Assembly (NCBI GenBank): GCA_002389785.1
Contig: DGQS01000092.1
Coordinates: 1-14,553 of the forward strand
Length of the DNA stretch: 14,553 nt
DNA from: Bacteroidetes bacterium UBA4408
GTDB lineage: Bacteria; Bacteroidota; Bacteroidia; UBA4408
Reading direction: 5' to 3'
The position numbers and the translations under genes were made by a program. The notes beneath the pieces are model-generated. The model did no database searches and was not told the DNA's origin. It worked only from the letters and a program-made list of their open reading frames with translations. How positions within the stretch are numbered: position 1 is the first letter of the stretch; each line of letters begins with the position of its first letter. Shown here in pieces: positions 8,230 through 14,553 of this stretch.

Positions 8230-9159
8230 ATGGATAGATCACTACTCTTAGGCAATCGCCATCCGCTTTCGCAGTTGTTTATTTTTTTGGGAATTGCTTT
8301 GTTGTCGGTTTCTATTTTTTCATTTATTCCATTTTTACTTGCTCAACCTTTGTTTGGAATAGATGCGCTGCACGATCAGGATTTATTTTCGAACCATACT
8401 ACTCCGGCTTCCATTGCCTTATTAAAATTTATTCAGCTCATGCAATCCATCGGATTATTTGTGGTTCCGCCTTTGTTGTTTACTTATTTGTATACTAAAC
8501 AAATAAAAGGTTACCTACAAATAAACCTCCCTATTTTTCCGCTACAGCTGGTGTTTATAACTATTATGTTAGTGGCTGCAATGCCTGCAATAAATTGGAT
8601 GGGAGAAATGAATGCTCAATTAAATTTACCTTCTTCTTTGCATGGCTTAGAAGTATGGATGAAAAAAATGGAAACAGAAGCTGAAGCACTTACAAAGGTA
8701 TTTTTACAAATGCCCAACATAGGAATTTTGCTTTTTAACTTAGTCTTAGTTGCTATTATTCCGGCAATTGGAGAAGAATTGGTTTTTAGAGGAGTGCTTC
8801 AAAAAATAATTGCTGAATGGACAAAAAACAAGCATCTGGGAATTTGGATTTCGGCCATTTTATTTAGTGCTATGCACTTGCAATTTTATGGCTTTGTACC
8901 ACGAATGCTTTTGGGAGCTCTACTTGGTTATTCGCTAGTTTGGACCGGTTCTATTTGGATTCCCATTTTGGGACATTTCGTGAACAATGCAACTGCAGTT
9001 TTGCTAACTTATTTAGAGCAAAGAGGAAAAATTAGCACAACAGTTGAAAGCATTGGAACAACTTCAGAAACTCAACTAATTGTGTTGTTTAGTTTTGCAA
9101 TAGTTTTTCTTTTTTCGTTTTTGTTGTGGAGGTCAAGTAAAGTTGAAAAGCAAAGTTAG
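8230..9159 (+). CDS. CPBP family (CAAX protease-like, Rce1-type) intramembrane metalloprotease
   Basis: A 309-aa polytopic membrane protein, with hydrophobic segments at about 15-39, 62-88, 101-122, 164-180, 204-216, 226-260 and 282-300. The three CPBP/Abi motifs are present and intact: EExxxR as E182-E183-LVF-R187, FxxxH as F212-SAM-H216, and HxxxN as H249-FVN-N253. Family members are glutamate-type intramembrane endopeptidases; bacterial ones are linked to bacteriocin immunity, signal-protein cleavage or envelope stress, and the substrate here is unknown. The proposed ATG 8230 starts MDRSLLLGNRHPL; the reading frame stays open upstream into dusB, but that extension is only dusB antisense. 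It is a single gene, divergent from dusB. Confidence 0.9.
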   Translation: MDRSLLLGNRHPLSQLFIFLGIALLSVSIFSFIPFLLAQPLFGIDALHDQDLFSNHTTPASIALLKFIQLMQSIGLFVVPPLLFTYLYTKQIKGYLQINLPIFPLQLVFITIMLVAAMPAINWMGEMNAQLNLPSSLHGLEVWMKKMETEAEALTKVFLQMPNIGILLFNLVLVAIIPAIGEELVFRGVLQKIIAEWTKNKHLGIWISAILFSAMHLQFYGFVPRMLLGALLGYSLVWTGSIWIPILGHFVNNATAVLLTYLEQRGKISTTVESIGTTSETQLIVLFSFAIVFLFSFLLWRSSKVEKQS

Positions 9160-9295: not shown

Positions 9296-9369
9296 CTATT
9301 CAAAAAAATTCGCACTGAATTTTCTAATCAAAATAAAACCCGCCGATGGCGGGTTGAATTGTTTTGCGG
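9296..9369 (+). repeat. Direct repeat, copy 1
   Basis: Begins CTATTCAAAAAAATT and ends GAATTGTTTTGCGG. Its last 56 bases (9314-9369) match copy 2 (9474-9529) with a single difference seen by eye (G9352 versus A9512). It contains the hairpin AACCCGCC-GAT-GGCGGGTT (9337-9355), which on the minus strand runs into a T-rich tract like a terminator. It also forms the left half of the foldback element. Confidence 0.85.
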
Positions 9370-9456: not shown

Positions 9457-9529
9457 CTATCAAAAAAAATTGTACTGAATTTTCTAATCAAAATAAAACC
9501 CGCCGATGGCGAGTTGAATTGTTTTGCGG
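9457..9529 (+). repeat. Direct repeat, copy 2 (partial foldback element)
   Basis: Repeats copy 1 from CTATCAAAAAAAATT to TTTTGCGG, one mismatch in the last 56 bases, 160 bp downstream. It carries only the left half of the foldback element; the apical and right arms are absent and the sequence changes after GCGGG at 9530. The A9512 change breaks one base pair of its CCCGCC hairpin. Confidence 0.85.
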
Positions 9530-9733: not shown

Positions 9734-9763
9734 GTGAAGCTTCCCTGCAAAAGGAAGCCTCAC
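9734..9763 (-). terminator. Rho-independent-type terminator after the PepSY-like gene
   Basis: Stem GTGAAGCTTCC / GGAAGCCTCAC, 11 pairs with one mismatch, 8-base loop. It lies 10 bases beyond the stop of the PepSY-like gene. On the minus strand it is followed by a T-rich tract (CGATTTTGTG). It would end the whole minus-strand module. Confidence 0.75.
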
Positions 9764-9772
9764 TATGAAAAA

Positions 9773-10237
9773 TTAATCCTTTCCTTCTTCTTCTTTCATT
9801 GCTTCGGTCTTTTTAACAAAGTTTCCGTTTGCATCGAATAAAGCGTCAAAGTACATTTTATCTTTTTCCATTTCGGCTTCATACATTACCTTGCCAGTTG
9901 CATCTGTAATTTTTGCGGCTTCAGATAACTTATAGCCTGCATAACTCTTGGTGCAATAGTCAGTAACAGCTTTTGGTAATGCCGATGTCTTAATTTCTTG
10001 TTCTAGTTCTTTAAATGTTCCACTTGCATCAAATACAGCAGAGGATTCTACTTTGTTTAAATGAAATTCAGCTTCATAATTAGCTCCTTCCTTTTCCCAC
10101 ACATCCACTTTCGATCCGGGATATTTTTTAGCAAAGCTATCTTTTACATTAGCAGGAACTTCTGCTTCTTTTAAGTGTTGTGCATTTGCGTAGCTAAGCC
10201 CGAAGCATAATGCGATTGTTGCGATTGTTGTTTTCAT
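9773..10237 (-). CDS. Periplasmic PepSY-like protein with two repeats
   Basis: A 154-aa protein with a signal peptide (cut likely after ANA, residues 17-19, before Gln20). Two repeats of the Bacteroidota PepSY-like fold follow. Repeat 1 (about 26-80) has VPANVKDSFAKKYPGSKVDVWEKEG, then NYEAEFHLN and AVFDASGTFKE. Repeat 2 (about 87-143) has LPKAVTDYCTKSYAGYKLSEA, then MYEAEMEKDKMYFDALFDANGNFVKK. The C-terminal tail is acidic (EEEGKD). Such proteins are small periplasmic binding or inhibitor-like domains, commonly encoded next to two-component systems; the ligand is unknown. It is the last gene of the minus-strand module, 69 bases after the receptor gene, with its own copy of the shared operator upstream. 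ATG 10237 is the only start giving a proper signal peptide. Confidence 0.88.
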   Translation of the reverse strand: MKTTIATIALCFGLSYANAQHLKEAEVPANVKDSFAKKYPGSKVDVWEKEGANYEAEFHLNKVESSAVFDASGTFKELEQEIKTSALPKAVTDYCTKSYAGYKLSEAAKITDATGKVMYEAEMEKDKMYFDALFDANGNFVKKTEAMKEEEGKD

Positions 10238-10264
10238 TTTTTATCTGGTTTTAAATTTATAATT

Positions 10265-10272
10265 CAAAGTAA
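10265..10272 (-). promoter_or_regulatory. Predicted -7 element TTACTTTG for the PepSY-like gene
   Basis: Minus strand TTACTTTG; the TTTG is intact but the TA position is imperfect (one mismatch to TAnnTTTG). It is placed 10 bases after the dyad at 10283-10299, exactly as in the receptor promoter, and ends 27 bases before ATG 10237. Confidence 0.45.
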
Positions 10273-10282
10273 CAACACAATT

Positions 10283-10299
10283 CTAAAGCAAATCTTTAG
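10283..10299 (-). promoter_or_regulatory. Putative operator dyad CTAAAG-N5-CTTTAG, copy upstream of the PepSY-like gene
   Basis: A perfect 6+6 dyad with 5-base spacer inside a 23-bp block (10277-10299) that matches the block upstream of the receptor gene at 22 of 23 positions. It fills the short gap between the receptor stop codon (10307-10309) and the PepSY-like promoter. Likely bound by the response regulator encoded at 14028-14553 (inference). Confidence 0.6.
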
Positions 10300-10306
10300 G
10301 CACAAA

Positions 10307-12736
10307 TTAGAACTTATAACTGTATCCAATTCTCACAACTTGTGTTTCATAATAATCGGTACTAACATACCTAAACCCGTTGCCTTGAATGGATTTTTTA
10401 ATCTGCATCGTATTCAAAAGGTCGGTAGCATTTATAAATAATTCTCCTTTACCCTTTTGAATTTGTTTTTTCATTCCTACATCCAATGAAAACCTTGATC
10501 CAATCGTTCCTTGTGGAATTAAATCAGGAGCGAGGTAAATTGCTGTTAATTGAAAATCTGTATTTTTCTTTGAATGGAAAGTAGCATTCAGTTTCGAATT
10601 CCAAGAGATTAATGACTGCCTATCAGAAGAATAAGTATTTGCATAAGGATATTTATTGTAAGCGGTAAAAGCCTCAATGGTGCTTTGATAGCCATTAAAA
10701 TTCATATTAAGAGAAAGCCAATTTTTTATGTCCTGTGAAACTATTAATTCCAATCCTGTGTTATAACTCCTTCCTGCATTCTGCATAATAGAATAAATCA
10801 AAGTGCTGCCCGAAACAACGCTTGCGATACGAGTGATTGTTCCATCTGCTATTTTGTGATACGCTGCCGAATAGAAATATCCGTTTTTCCAGTTTCCTTT
10901 ATAGCCTAATTCAAACAGATTGGTGAATTGTGGGTTTAATGAAGGATTACCAACTTTAATAATTTCTGCATCATCATACTTTGGGAAGATTCTAATATCA
11001 ACTTCGTTTGGTCTATCAACTCTTCTATTGTAAAACAAAGAAATCTTGTTATTGTCATTAAATTTATAAGCAAATCTTACGTTAGGAAAAGGCTGGGTAT
11101 AATTATATCCGTTGCTTTTATAAGTGGGGTGGTTTGGATTCACTTGATAATTCACATTAACATACTCAACTCTTAAACCTGCCTCTAATTCATATTTTGC
11201 TTTTTCAAGAACGTAATTTCCATATAGCGCAGGTATCGTTTCTTTATAATTTGCCCAACCTCCTGCTGCGGAATCAATGGGAGAATTAATTCCCGGAAAG
11301 AAAAGCATATTTGTTGGAATATTTCTATACCTGAATTTACCTCCCATTTCGATCCTTCCATGCTTTAAGGGTTTAATGTAGTCGAGATTGAAATCTGCTA
11401 CATTCTCATCAGAAATTAACTTAAAGGCATCATAACCTGTAAAGGTTGGCATCACATTCGTGAAGTAATACTTTTCATCTTCCCTGTGAAATGTATAATT
11501 CAATCCAATGTTTAAAGTATGTCCAGCCTGTTTGAATTTATGTAAGTATGAAGAAGATGCAGTAGCAGTTGTTTTTAGTTCATCCTCTAAAAATTGCCAT
11601 AAACGTATTCTCTCTGAATAATCGGAGTTGAAAAATGGTTCATCTCCATGATCTAAAATTCGCTCTGAACTAAATAACCCTGATAAGCTAAATTGGTTGT
11701 ATTCATTGGGATTATAATCAAATCCTAATCTTCCTGTTGCAACTGTAGTGTTTCTATTTCTTTTAGTTTGCTGATGAATAATCTCTCCGCTATCATAGTA
11801 ACGATCTACAAATTCATTTTTATTCAATGTGTTGGTAAGTAAGTAATCGCCCTGAAGGAATAAATTAATTTTCTTTTTTTTGTAGTTAAGTGATAGGCTT
11901 GGATTAAACTTAGGTGTATTTTGATATTGTGGTCGAATCGTTGGTAGGTTTTCCTGCTTTATCCATAAAGCACCCAAGCCTGCTGCCACGCCTACCTTAC
12001 CATTAAACCCTTCTTGTTTATTTTTCTTATAAATGATATTAATTACACCTGCGTTGCCATTGGCATCATATTTAGCTGAAGGATTATTTATGATTTCAAT
12101 TTTTTCAATAGCGGATGCAGGAATATTATCAAGGCTTGTTTGGTTTCCAAAACCTGTTAATGCAGTTTGCTTTCCATCAATTAATACAATCACTTTATCG
12201 CTGCCTCGTATCTGAACCTTTCCTTCTTGTACAGTTACTCCGGGTAAATTTTGTACGGCTTGCAAAACCGAACCACCACTTTGAGAAATGTTATTTTCAA
12301 GTGTATAGGATTTCTTATCCATTTTACCTGAAACTTCGTCTTGCTTTGCGGTTACTTCAACTTCATTTAAAACTTGTGTGTCTTCAGATAATTCTATTAC
12401 ACCTGCATCTAAAAACGAACTCAAACTACCAATAAAGAAAGATTGTCTTGAGGTCGCATAACCAATAAACGAAACTTCGATATAATATTTACCCTGCTTT
12501 AAACCATTTAATGTAAAACGCCCTTCTTCATTGGTGATAGTTCCCACAACTAAGGAACTGTCTGTCTCCATTTTAATTAATACACTCACATAAGGCAAAG
12601 GACTTCCTGTATTTTTTTCTTTAATTAGACCCGAAACAGAAATGTTTTGTGTTTGCGAATACACATTTACACTTAGCAACAGAAACACCAAGCACTCAAT
12701 TGTTCTTTTTAAAATGGAGGGATTTTTAACTTTCAT
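10307..12736 (-). CDS. Outer-membrane beta-barrel, TonB-dependent-receptor-like protein
   Basis: An 809-aa outer-membrane protein. Signal peptide about 1-28 (hydrophobic CLVFLLLSVNV, then YSQ). Residues about 32-118 form a carboxypeptidase-regulatory-like domain (ISVSGLIKEKNTGSPLPYVSVLI, then GTITNEEGRFTLNGLKQGKYYIEVSFIGY, given in two pieces). A TonB-box-like stretch NEVEVTAK (124-131) precedes the plug at about 140-238, which has LQAVQNLPGV, VQIRGSDKVIVLIDGKQ and the end motif NAGVINIIYKK. The rest is a barrel of the outer-membrane beta-barrel family (TonB-linked type 3), closing with VVRIGYSYKF whose terminal Phe suits BAM assembly. No SusD partner is adjacent, so glycan import by a SusCD pair is unlikely; a small ligand, metal chelate or peptide is possible. 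Co-located with a two-component system and preceded by its own promoter and operator. Confidence 0.92.
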   Translation of the reverse strand: MKVKNPSILKRTIECLVFLLLSVNVYSQTQNISVSGLIKEKNTGSPLPYVSVLIKMETDSSLVVGTITNEEGRFTLNGLKQGKYYIEVSFIGYATSRQSFFIGSLSSFLDAGVIELSEDTQVLNEVEVTAKQDEVSGKMDKKSYTLENNISQSGGSVLQAVQNLPGVTVQEGKVQIRGSDKVIVLIDGKQTALTGFGNQTSLDNIPASAIEKIEIINNPSAKYDANGNAGVINIIYKKNKQEGFNGKVGVAAGLGALWIKQENLPTIRPQYQNTPKFNPSLSLNYKKKKINLFLQGDYLLTNTLNKNEFVDRYYDSGEIIHQQTKRNRNTTVATGRLGFDYNPNEYNQFSLSGLFSSERILDHGDEPFFNSDYSERIRLWQFLEDELKTTATASSSYLHKFKQAGHTLNIGLNYTFHREDEKYYFTNVMPTFTGYDAFKLISDENVADFNLDYIKPLKHGRIEMGGKFRYRNIPTNMLFFPGINSPIDSAAGGWANYKETIPALYGNYVLEKAKYELEAGLRVEYVNVNYQVNPNHPTYKSNGYNYTQPFPNVRFAYKFNDNNKISLFYNRRVDRPNEVDIRIFPKYDDAEIIKVGNPSLNPQFTNLFELGYKGNWKNGYFYSAAYHKIADGTITRIASVVSGSTLIYSIMQNAGRSYNTGLELIVSQDIKNWLSLNMNFNGYQSTIEAFTAYNKYPYANTYSSDRQSLISWNSKLNATFHSKKNTDFQLTAIYLAPDLIPQGTIGSRFSLDVGMKKQIQKGKGELFINATDLLNTMQIKKSIQGNGFRYVSTDYYETQVVRIGYSYKF

Positions 12737-12740
12737 ATCA

Positions 12741-12748
12741 CAAACCTA
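12741..12748 (-). promoter_or_regulatory. Predicted -7 element TAGGTTTG for the receptor gene
   Basis: Exact TAnnTTTG match on the minus strand, 10 bases after the dyad at 12759-12775 and ending 4 bases before ATG 12736. The predicted transcript is leaderless or nearly so. Confidence 0.55.
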
Positions 12749-12758
12749 CTGTACAATT

Positions 12759-12775
12759 CTAAAGTAAATCTTTAG
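12759..12775 (-). promoter_or_regulatory. Putative operator dyad CTAAAG-N5-CTTTAG, copy upstream of the receptor gene
   Basis: Perfect 6+6 dyad with spacer ATTTA (minus strand) in the 35-base gap between kinase and receptor genes. It overlaps the kinase stop codon (12772-12774). Relative to the -7 element it covers roughly -38 to -22, where an activator would contact RNA polymerase. Confidence 0.6.
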
Positions 12776-14031
12776 TTGAAATTTACTTGAAAATGATGCA
12801 ATGATGATGAATAATCGTAATTGATTTTAAATCCATAGGTTTTAGCAATTCCATTAATAATCGATAAACCAAGACCGAGAGAGTCTTTGGAGGCATCATT
12901 CTTTTTAAAACGAATAAATAGATGTTCCTTGGGAATAGTTAATGGTTCACCGCTGTTAGAAATGGTCAATTGATTTTGCTTTAATTCAATAATTATTTTT
13001 CCATTTTCACTGTTGTGCCTGATTGCATTTTGAATAAGGTTTGTTAGAAGAATTTCAGCCAAAGTTGGATTCATCTTTACTATAACATCTTCTGATAAAT
13101 TCAATTCCAAACCAATATTTTTTGACTGAAACAGATCCATGTAATTATCCGTTATTTTTGAAGTAAACTGCTTAATGCTTATTGATTCGCTCTCCTTAAA
13201 CTGATTGTTTTCTATTTTAGATAATAAAATAAGAGCCTTATTTAACGATGCTAATTTTTTTATGGTGTTTTCAATTGTTTGAAGTCGATTCATTTCATCT
13301 TCTTTCAAATTGTCTGATTGCATTAATAAACTGAGATTTGCTTTAATAACTGCCAATGGTGTTTGCATTTCGTGAGACGCATTTTCGGTAAACTCTTTTT
13401 GCTCCTGATAATCAGAATAAATTTTATCCATCATTTTATTCAAAGCAATATTTAATTGATTAAACTCAAGTGTATTTACTTCATTAAAATGATATTGTTC
13501 ATGGTTTTGAATTTCGTATTTGTTTAACTTAGAAAGCGTACTATAGAATGGTTTCCATAAAGTTTTTGACAACAACCAATTAACTATTACAAAGGACACT
13601 ATCAAAAAGCCTACAATTAAAGCAAATGTTGCAAGTATTCCCTCCAAAAGTTCCTCCTCTTCCATTGTAGTTTTAATCAGAGTAATTTGATATGTGTTTT
13701 GCTCAAACGTATAATAGCTGCGCAACATTCTCGCTCCAACATTTTCCTTTTCAACACTATTATAAATTGAGGTGTCAATGAATCCTGTCTTTAATTTGCA
13801 ATCGGTACATGGAATGATATTCTCAAGACTATCAGAACTCAAATAGATGCTTTTAGGTTCTTTCAATGAGTGAATAAGTCTTTCAGCATTAACTTTTTCA
13901 TTCATCAATGTTTCATCAGTACCATCTTTCAATTCGCTATTAATAAGAAAATAGGAAAGCAGTCCTGCAATAATCAGCAACGGCAAACTAACTAAAAGGT
14001 AATAAAAGAGTGTTTTACTTATTAATTTCAT
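12772..14031 (-). CDS. Membrane sensor histidine kinase of a two-component system
   Basis: A 419-aa inner-membrane kinase. TM1 about 9-30; extracytoplasmic sensor about 31-130 holding the pair Cys75 and Cys78 (CTDC); TM2 about 131-153. The linker 154-205 has no obvious HAMP consensus. DHp: ENASHEMQTPL with phospho-acceptor His220. ATP domain: N box NLIQNAIRHN with Asn335, G1 region SNSGEPL (358-364) with the usual Asp replaced, LFIRFKK (371-377) and G2 GLGLS (386-390). The NSG-type G1 box is frequent in Bacteroidota kinases, so activity is still expected. It overlaps the response-regulator stop by four bases (ATGA), showing translational coupling, and is followed 35 bases later by the receptor gene. 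The ligand is unknown; the Cys pair hints at metal or redox sensing. Confidence 0.93.
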   Translation of the reverse strand: MKLISKTLFYYLLVSLPLLIIAGLLSYFLINSELKDGTDETLMNEKVNAERLIHSLKEPKSIYLSSDSLENIIPCTDCKLKTGFIDTSIYNSVEKENVGARMLRSYYTFEQNTYQITLIKTTMEEEELLEGILATFALIVGFLIVSFVIVNWLLSKTLWKPFYSTLSKLNKYEIQNHEQYHFNEVNTLEFNQLNIALNKMMDKIYSDYQEQKEFTENASHEMQTPLAVIKANLSLLMQSDNLKEDEMNRLQTIENTIKKLASLNKALILLSKIENNQFKESESISIKQFTSKITDNYMDLFQSKNIGLELNLSEDVIVKMNPTLAEILLTNLIQNAIRHNSENGKIIIELKQNQLTISNSGEPLTIPKEHLFIRFKKNDASKDSLGLGLSIINGIAKTYGFKINYDYSSSLHHFQVNFN

Positions 14032-14553
14032 CCGTTTACTTTAAAATTATAACCTATACCGTATATCGTTTGCACATAATCCGTACATCCTTTATCCATC
14101 AATTTTTTTCTAAGATTTCTTAAATGAACGTAAATAAAATCGTGACTATCCATTTGATCTGAATCGTCTCCCCACAAATGTTCCGCAATGGTATTTTTTG
14201 AAACAACCCTGTTTTTATTTGAAATGAAAAATAATAGCAAATCGTACTCTTTAGCTGTTAAAGCAACGAGTTCATTATTTACATTAACCTGTCTTTGCTC
14301 AGGGAGAATGGTAATTTCGTTTACAACAATAGACTTGTTGCCATCAAAGTTCCTCCTACGAATAAGTGCTTTAATTCGGGAATTCAATTCTGCTAAATCA
14401 AAAGGCTTTGCTAAATAATCATCAGCTCCCAAATCAAGCCCTTTAATTTTATCGCCTGAAGAATTTTTGGCTGAAATAATGATAATACCTGCTTTTGAGT
14501 TATTTTCTTTTAACCTTTTTACAATGTCTAATCCGTTGCCTTTAGGTAGTGTT
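14028..14553 (-). CDS. OmpR/PhoB-family response regulator, partial (N-terminus outside window)
   Basis: The minus strand is open from the window end to the TGA at 14028-14030, with about 174 codons visible. The visible receiver portion has LPKGNGLDIVKRLKE (following the phospho-Asp, which is outside the window), the Ser/Thr switch strand IIIISAK, and Lys in the LAKPFDLAEL motif. The C-terminal half is a winged-helix DNA-binding domain: ITILPEQRQVNVN, then LTAKEYDLLLFFISNKNRVVS, with HLWGDDSD, DFIYVHLRNLRKKL and a YVQTIYGIGYNF wing. It should receive phosphate from the kinase encoded immediately downstream (four-base overlap) and bind promoters. The two CTAAAG-N5-CTTTAG dyads downstream are the obvious candidate targets. 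Starting at TTG 14432 would be wrong because the frame continues upstream with receiver-domain sequence. Confidence 0.94.
   Translation of the reverse strand, partial: TLPKGNGLDIVKRLKENNSKAGIIIISAKNSSGDKIKGLDLGADDYLAKPFDLAELNSRIKALIRRRNFDGNKSIVVNEITILPEQRQVNVNNELVALTAKEYDLLLFFISNKNRVVSKNTIAEHLWGDDSDQMDSHDFIYVHLRNLRKKLMDKGCTDYVQTIYGIGYNFKVNG

Follow-up and report, generated by a model that had tools for sequence, protein, structure and literature searches.

The window analysed here is the whole 14,553-nucleotide (nt) contig DGQS01000092.1 of Bacteroidetes bacterium UBA4408 (assembly GCA_002389785.1), whose minus strand encodes an OmpR-family response regulator, a sensor histidine kinase, a TonB-dependent receptor-like protein and a PepSY-like protein. 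Two nearly identical operator-promoter blocks, one upstream of the receptor gene and one upstream of the PepSY-like gene, are the subject of this analysis. With good confidence, both are places at which the neighbouring OmpR-family regulator, once phosphorylated, would activate transcription. Computation established where the sites lie, that they are tandem and keep a fixed spacing, that they are conserved yet rare in the genome, and that they co-occur with the regulator family. Judged by its sequence, the block is an OmpR/PhoB/PmrA-type tandem operator lying over the -33 region, and the perfect dyad is a special case of the window's clade. A sequence-only reading of the same DNA had described the blocks as inverted-repeat operators that join the two genes in one small regulon; its regulon inference is largely right, its symmetry reading is wrong, and the reach of the system is wider than it supposed. 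The operators and promoter elements, with units in base pairs (bp), are as follows.

12754 to 12775, minus strand: operator 1, a 22-bp tandem of the 11-bp units CTAAAGATTTA and CTTTAGAATTG, upstream of the receptor gene
12741 to 12748, minus strand: -7 element TAGGTTTG of the receptor promoter, 5 nt past the tandem, 10 nt past the dyad and 4 nt before the ATG
10278 to 10299, minus strand: operator 2, a tandem of the 11-bp units CTAAAGATTTG and CTTTAGAATTG, upstream of the PepSY-like gene
10265 to 10272, minus strand: -7 element TTACTTTG of the PepSY-like gene, spaced as at operator 1 and 27 nt before the ATG

Comparison of the minus-strand stretches 12775-12753 and 10299-10277 confirmed that 22 of 23 bases are identical and that the dyad CTAAAG-N5-CTTTAG is exact in both; the 10 nt between dyad and TAGGTTTG or TTACTTTG, and the 4 and 27 nt from these elements to the ATG, were likewise as first described. 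Similarity between the two places drops outside the 23-nt blocks. TAGGTTTG matches the TAnnTTTG consensus exactly and TTACTTTG is one base off, and the first unit of operator 1 overlaps the kinase stop codon (12772-12774). The two sites stand alone in the window at up to 2 mismatches; since shuffled sequences average 0.9 sites at this loose threshold, it is the exact matches that carry weight. In the organism's own genome bin (2,651,853 bases, 71% complete), with the reversed pattern as control, the exact motif occurs at these two places only (control 0), and a looser pattern of tandem plus TTTG with up to 2 mismatches finds the same two sites only (control 1). The genome-wide search proposed by the sequence-only reading shows a motif that is not scattered, with both exact sites of the 2.65-Mb bin inside one gene cassette. 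The idea of a large regulon in this 71%-complete bin was rejected, as no further site appeared at up to 2 mismatches.

The proposed check in orthologous loci gave the same picture. A kinase scan yielded nine such loci, eight of which (L004-L011) include the upstream regions of the receptor and PepSY-like genes; both blocks precede the same two genes in all eight, two of these loci being near-duplicates of others. Block start and -7 element are a constant 27 nt apart in L004-L011, the PepSY-like gene of L009 having TTACTTCG as its -7 element. The blocks are almost unchanged although the cassette is only 72-76% identical in L005, L006 and L008-L011. All seven loci that include the regulator start (L004, L005, L006, L008, L009, L011 and L012) have a third site immediately before the regulator gene, and the regulator's own promoter is very probably a third target in relatives, which would amount to autoregulation. 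This site is missing from the window because the contig ends at 14553, cutting off the regulator promoter; the window regulator's own operator would lie beyond it. The earlier statement that there is no third copy stands for the window, with its two sites, but not for L004, which has one just upstream of the regulator gene. Similarly, the receptor and PepSY-like genes alone are linked in the 71%-complete bin, as the idea of one small regulon had it, but the relatives add the regulator promoter. In L005, an extra block of three tandem units (10901-10946) precedes a small lipoprotein gene, the product of which is 44% identical to an L048 lipoprotein that scores with the PepSY-like profile; in L047, three head-to-tail 11-bp units (9095-9140) precede a second TonB-type receptor gene.

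The position of the site relative to the promoter bears on the direction of control. A -33 TTTG is expected about 19 nt upstream of TAnnTTTG, and none occurs in the 27 nt that precede the -7 element of the receptor promoter. In the PepSY promoter a TTTG stands 16 nt ahead of the -7 element, which counts against the replacement of a -33 contact there, although this is a few bases too close for a usual -33. It is unlikely, although worth keeping in mind, that the regulator represses, or represses and activates depending on its state, instead of replacing the -33 contact. The overlap of the site with the promoter and the TTTG of the PepSY promoter suit this alternative, and for HaeR of Porphyromonas gingivalis both modes of action have been reported (PMC3764172), whereas the TTTG-free receptor promoter and the fixed phase of the site to the -7 element, which resembles that of activator sites, favour activation. 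The missing -33 is weak evidence because the -33 motif is hardly evident in Flavobacterium johnsoniae either, according to an account of its probable promoters in which transcription starts 4-5 nt past the -7 element (PMC6847099).

The distances to the start codons bear on the mRNA leaders. The receptor ATG lies 4 nt past the -7 element in the window and in all eight orthologues, and of the 34 regulator-gene rows with a site, counted less stringently, 20 have a gap of exactly 4 nt. When the operator is disregarded, a strict TAnnTTT[GA] precedes the start by 4 nt in 13 of 43 regulator genes versus 21 of 648 others, and 8 of those 21 are receptors of this system; many regulator promoters have TAnnTTTA, shifted by one base with the 4-nt gap retained. 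A start codon only 4 nt past the -7 element predicts leaderless mRNAs for the receptor and the regulator, but not for the PepSY-like gene. The earlier view that promoter geometry is conserved and distance to the gene is not thus holds for the spacing between dyad and promoter, but the gap itself is fixed for the receptor and many regulator genes. Short leaders are reported as a minority of about 13% in F. johnsoniae (PMC6847099), and leaders under 10 nt as about 3.7% in Bacteroides thetaiotaomicron (PMC7366714).

Regarding the symmetry of the site, the conserved unit is CTNNAGAWTNN, present twice, head to tail, with a period of 11 bp. The dyad arms are not kept in the orthologues: the PepSY sites of L005-L011 read CTAAAG...CTTAAG, and the receptor sites of L008, L010 and L011 read AAAAAG...CTTTAG. 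For the family as a whole, sites were chosen by their CT--AG cores (7 of 8 letters) and -7 element (5 of 6) only, giving 51 distinct sites, of which a few seem due to chance; the near-duplicates L007, L010 and L046 were omitted here and from the tandem, composite-site, helix-base, tree and PepSY-distance counts below. The AWT extension follows the first core in 34 and the second core in 45 of the 51 sites and precedes the first core in 4. At the two free core positions, agreement as a direct repeat was found in 58 of 102 comparisons and as an inverted repeat in 31 of 102. In the window's own two sites these positions fit the inverted better than the direct order, and the direct symmetry accordingly rests on the family. 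Half-sites arranged head to tail 10-11 bp apart are the mark of OmpR/PhoB-type operators; the period here is 11 bp, with three-unit arrays in L005 and L047, and the adjacent regulator combines a receiver with a winged-helix Trans_reg_C domain and has a full-length homologue in L004.

A genuine palindrome, recognised by the symmetric dimer of some other regulator (a one-component type, say) and only incidentally next to the two-component genes, is a very unlikely reading. Both window sites are perfect CTAAAG-N5-CTTTAG dyads, as this explanation would have them, but the orthologues lose the dyad arms, AWT follows both halves head to tail, L005 and L047 have three tandem units, and the sites track this regulator family across the class. 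On the orthologue arms and the family's flank symmetry, the inverted-repeat operator of the sequence-only reading was rejected. A recent duplication of promoter DNA with no regulatory meaning, or a hairpin or terminator after the kinase gene, is scarcely credible: the blocks are nearly identical and the first overlaps the kinase stop codon, but both copies are kept in orthologues 72-76% identical over the cassette, the block of L005 stays with the receptor rather than the kinase end where an EamA-like gene has been inserted between them, and each block precedes its own -7 element, which keeps it out of that transcript.

The tandem operator was also sought in more distant relatives, sampled as the 33 best-scoring of 57 match rows outside the organism's own, without G606:C64. 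A scan for CTNNAGAWT-N2-CTNNAGAWT, blind to the promoter, covered 40 loci and 478 kb, with first-order shuffles and the reversed pattern for comparison. At a score of 14 of 14 it found 25 places versus 0.33 per shuffle and none for the reversed pattern, and at 13 of 14 it found 24 versus 1.7 and 2; the places include related sequences and the counts are not independent events, yet the contrast is large. Of the 77 places scoring at least 12, 33 have a TTTG beginning at offset 31; none of 23 other offsets has it in more than 2. The fixed geometry between operator and promoter, claimed for the window alone, thereby extends far outside its clade. A PepSY-like gene lies within 3.5 kb in 26 of 59 kinase loci.

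A reverse search, which used DNA only, looked for CTWCAGAWT twice plus TAnnTTTG with up to 2 mismatches in 395 genomes of the class and found 57 places in 40 genomes, versus 0 for the reversed pattern. A tight clade-specific pattern had matched only the organism's own genome among the 395 and was therefore too narrow to reveal the wider family, while a relaxed pattern gave matches in 6 of 10 selected genomes. Eleven of the 57 places fall inside loci already studied; the other 46 were newly examined, mostly with 4 kb on each side and some with less at contig ends. A regulator or kinase homologue lies alongside 23 of these 46, a PepSY-like gene alongside 8 and any of the four cassette genes alongside 26, whereas about 5% would be expected by chance for a regulator or kinase, a rough estimate from about 10-30 kinase candidates per genome. 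In 38 putative target proteins, chosen with the regulators and most PepSY-like proteins left out and with starts assigned mechanically, Pfam domains included the TonB plug (5), sulfatase (3), PAP2 (3), outer-membrane efflux (3), DUF347 (1) and VTT (1), along with unrelated types such as SecA and glycosyltransferases. Class-wide targets thus comprise many envelope functions, but others too. Membrane proteins of 645-653 residues with similar starts are encoded downstream of three class-wide sites (L064:8806-10764, L171:1992-3947 and L172:4053-5987), with a sulfatase domain seen in L064 and L172.

The regulator itself provides a further link to the site. The closest solved relatives of the full-length L004 regulator include DrrD and BasR/PmrA (PDB 8jo2 and 4s04), and its IYVHLRNLR aligns with LEVHIHNLR of BasR. 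In the 30 loci above threshold, base 4 of the half-site is C in 1 of 52 half-sites where one recognition-helix position is Val, in 37 of 40 where it is Ser, in 9 of 10 where it is Asn and in 13 of 18 where it is Thr. Shuffling of labels reached this association in 0 of 20,000 trials, and in 82 of 20,000 with eight near-window loci left out. Of the Val loci below threshold, L066 agrees (CTTTAG twice).

Besides the inverted order of the window's free positions and the TTTG of the PepSY promoter, several results weigh against a tandem operator read by this regulator family. At a score of 12 of 14, the tandem scan gave 28 places versus 22 for shuffles and 9 for the reversed pattern, a tier that is mostly chance. 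The composite site is absent in 8 of 32 more distant loci in the range L047-L078 (L053, L061, L067, L068, L070, L074, L076 and L078), and no homologue of the regulator, kinase, PepSY-like protein or receptor accompanies 20 of the 46 sites from the reverse search within the stretch examined. The Val locus L052, also below threshold, has a weak, mixed site, and in the regulator tree, where bootstrap does not settle the branching, one group gathers 11 of 12 Val rows along with one Asn row. The covariation between helix and base would hence come down to few independent events, and is supporting evidence, not proof. The adjacent OmpR-family regulator nevertheless very probably binds both operators, switching on the receptor and PepSY-like genes together with its own operon. 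As the sequence-only reading had proposed, this regulator is the most likely binder, given the rarity of the exact pair, the conservation in orthologues and the co-occurrence with the regulator family.

The proposed mechanism can be outlined as follows; that the regulator binds, that it activates and does not repress, that transcripts begin without a leader and that the PepSY-like protein may act back on the kinase are inferences. Two regulator subunits would sit head to tail, one on each 11-bp unit, roughly a helix turn from each other. The tandem would cover the place of the -33 TTTG and end 5 nt before the TAnnTTTG element read by the housekeeping sigma factor of Bacteroidota. The bound dimer would hold or recruit RNA polymerase at a promoter that lacks a well-placed -33, replacing the -33 contact. 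It would act on the genes of the TonB-type receptor and the PepSY-like protein and, among relatives, on the regulator-kinase operon as well. The receptor and regulator mRNAs would start at or beside the AUG; for the PepSY mRNA, a leader of about 22 nt is predicted. At a guess, the PepSY-like protein may feed back negatively on the kinase; PF11396 proteins have been proposed as inhibitors on structural grounds (PMC2954215).

Among known systems, the PhoB pho box is an 11-bp tandem repeat that replaces the -35 region and lies about 10 bp from the downstream promoter element. The tandem geometry of the window sites is alike, but the half-site and the sigma factor differ. The PmrA/BasR box of Salmonella and of Klebsiella pbgP also resembles the window in its OmpR-family regulator, head-to-tail half-sites and 5-bp separation. 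It is given as head-to-tail CTTAAG-N5-XTTAAT (PMC3973317), with which the spacing of CTAAAG-N5-CTTTAG agrees but its letters do not. The PmrA half-site does occur in a close relative, in the L047 regulator promoter CTTAAGAATCTCTTAAG (CTTAAG-N5-CTTAAG); the regulator gene of this locus (L047:3925-4598) looks broken near its 3' end, giving two tblastn pieces. Among the genes that follow class-wide sites are some of the PAP2, sulfatase-domain and VTT (DedA-type) kinds, a further likeness to PmrA/BasR. On the other hand, half-sites vary within the class (CTACAG, CTCCAG and CTTCAG), and the window sites are coupled at a fixed distance to the Bacteroidota TAnnTTTG element, with a receptor and a PepSY-like protein as targets.

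Also comparable is HaeSR of P. gingivalis (PG0719-PG0720), a pair reported beside the DUF2874/PF11396 lipoprotein PG0717, the regulator of which is described as binding its own promoter and TonB-dependent receptor promoters (PMC3764172). Its footprint has been published by position only, as far as PMC8757827 gives it. The window has the same kind of neighbourhood, a regulator-kinase pair beside a PF11396 gene. The window kinase also scores above the PorY-family cut-off, a likeness to PorY of P. gingivalis. PorY is described as an orphan kinase whose partner PorX has a PglZ domain (PMC4800418), whereas the window kinase adjoins an OmpR-type regulator with Trans_reg_C and no PglZ; a PorX-type partner was rejected on this ground, and the PorY-family name does not imply the PorX pathway. 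The PorY-family model is unspecific below its cut-off, finding many kinases in 11 of 11 relatives and 12 of 14 control genomes, while the cut-off is passed in just 2 of 11 relatives and 1 of 14 control genomes.

The genes that surround the operators are listed below.

14028 to 14552, minus strand: OmpR-family response regulator with receiver and Trans_reg_C, its 5' end lost at the contig end; putative binder of both operators
12772 to 14031, minus strand: sensor histidine kinase of 419 amino acids, scoring 445 bits with the NCBIfam model NF052314 ('PorY family'; cut-off 350)
10307 to 12736, minus strand: TonB-dependent receptor-like outer-membrane protein of 809 amino acids with CarbopepD_reg_2, Plug and OMP_b-brl_3; predicted leaderless start at 12736
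9773 to 10237, minus strand: PepSY-like protein (PF11396, former DUF2874) of 154 amino acids, with a signal-peptide-like N terminus as judged by eye
9762 to 14553: regulator-kinase-receptor-PepSY cassette; DNA homology with L004-L011 stops somewhere in 9762-9809, close to the PepSY stop codon or at it

The nearest relative is L004, to which (L004:5479-10269) positions 9762-14553 are 91% identical in DNA over 4.8 kb, and the cassette kinase is found in 1 of 8 genomes of the window's family, namely its own (search E up to 1e-40). The end of homology at the PepSY stop, the likeness to L004 and this narrow distribution in the family suggest that the four genes seem to travel as one cassette. The L004 genome is apparently G651, from another family of the class, and horizontal transfer of the cassette between the window's lineage and that of L004 is likely. 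A serine recombinase gene lies downstream of the cassette in L004. Just downstream of the cassette end in the window are 70-nt direct repeats (9300-9369 and 9460-9529, 94% identical), plus inverted repeats. In plasmid records, the relatives of the kinase are all below 60% identity (22 records).

With respect to the signal, a metal or envelope cue for the kinase is plausible because metal-efflux genes adjoin three orthologous loci. These heavy-metal efflux or binding genes (CusB-like, HMA, P-type ATPase, RND and cation efflux) lie upstream of the regulator at L008:2246-5160, L009:688-4377 and L011:550-4936; a MerT match in L004 falls below its cut-off. The periplasmic part of the window kinase has a CTDC motif at residues 75-78. 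Metal sensing through this motif was rejected: CTDC is not a family feature, as the window's kinase and that of L004 are its sole carriers in an alignment of 7.

Paper searches limited to open-licence full text brought to light no binding motif for these Bacteroidota regulators. Tentatively, and with more doubt than confidence, a class-wide code may be proposed, in which systems with a PorY-family kinase and an OmpR-type regulator read a PmrA-like 11-bp tandem phased with TAnnTTTG, a helix residue partly sets specificity at base 4 (Val for A or T, Ser for C), autoregulation is leaderless, the PepSY-like protein feeds back, and HaeSR is a member. The prediction of leaderless mRNAs is of note in itself, short leaders being a minority in the phylum. 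The analysis links PepSY-like (DUF2874) proteins to a specific signalling system and gives a concrete test of how an OmpR-type activator works with the unusual sigma factor of Bacteroidota. An operator defined at the level of sequence, with a fixed promoter geometry, would let such regulons be predicted from genomes.

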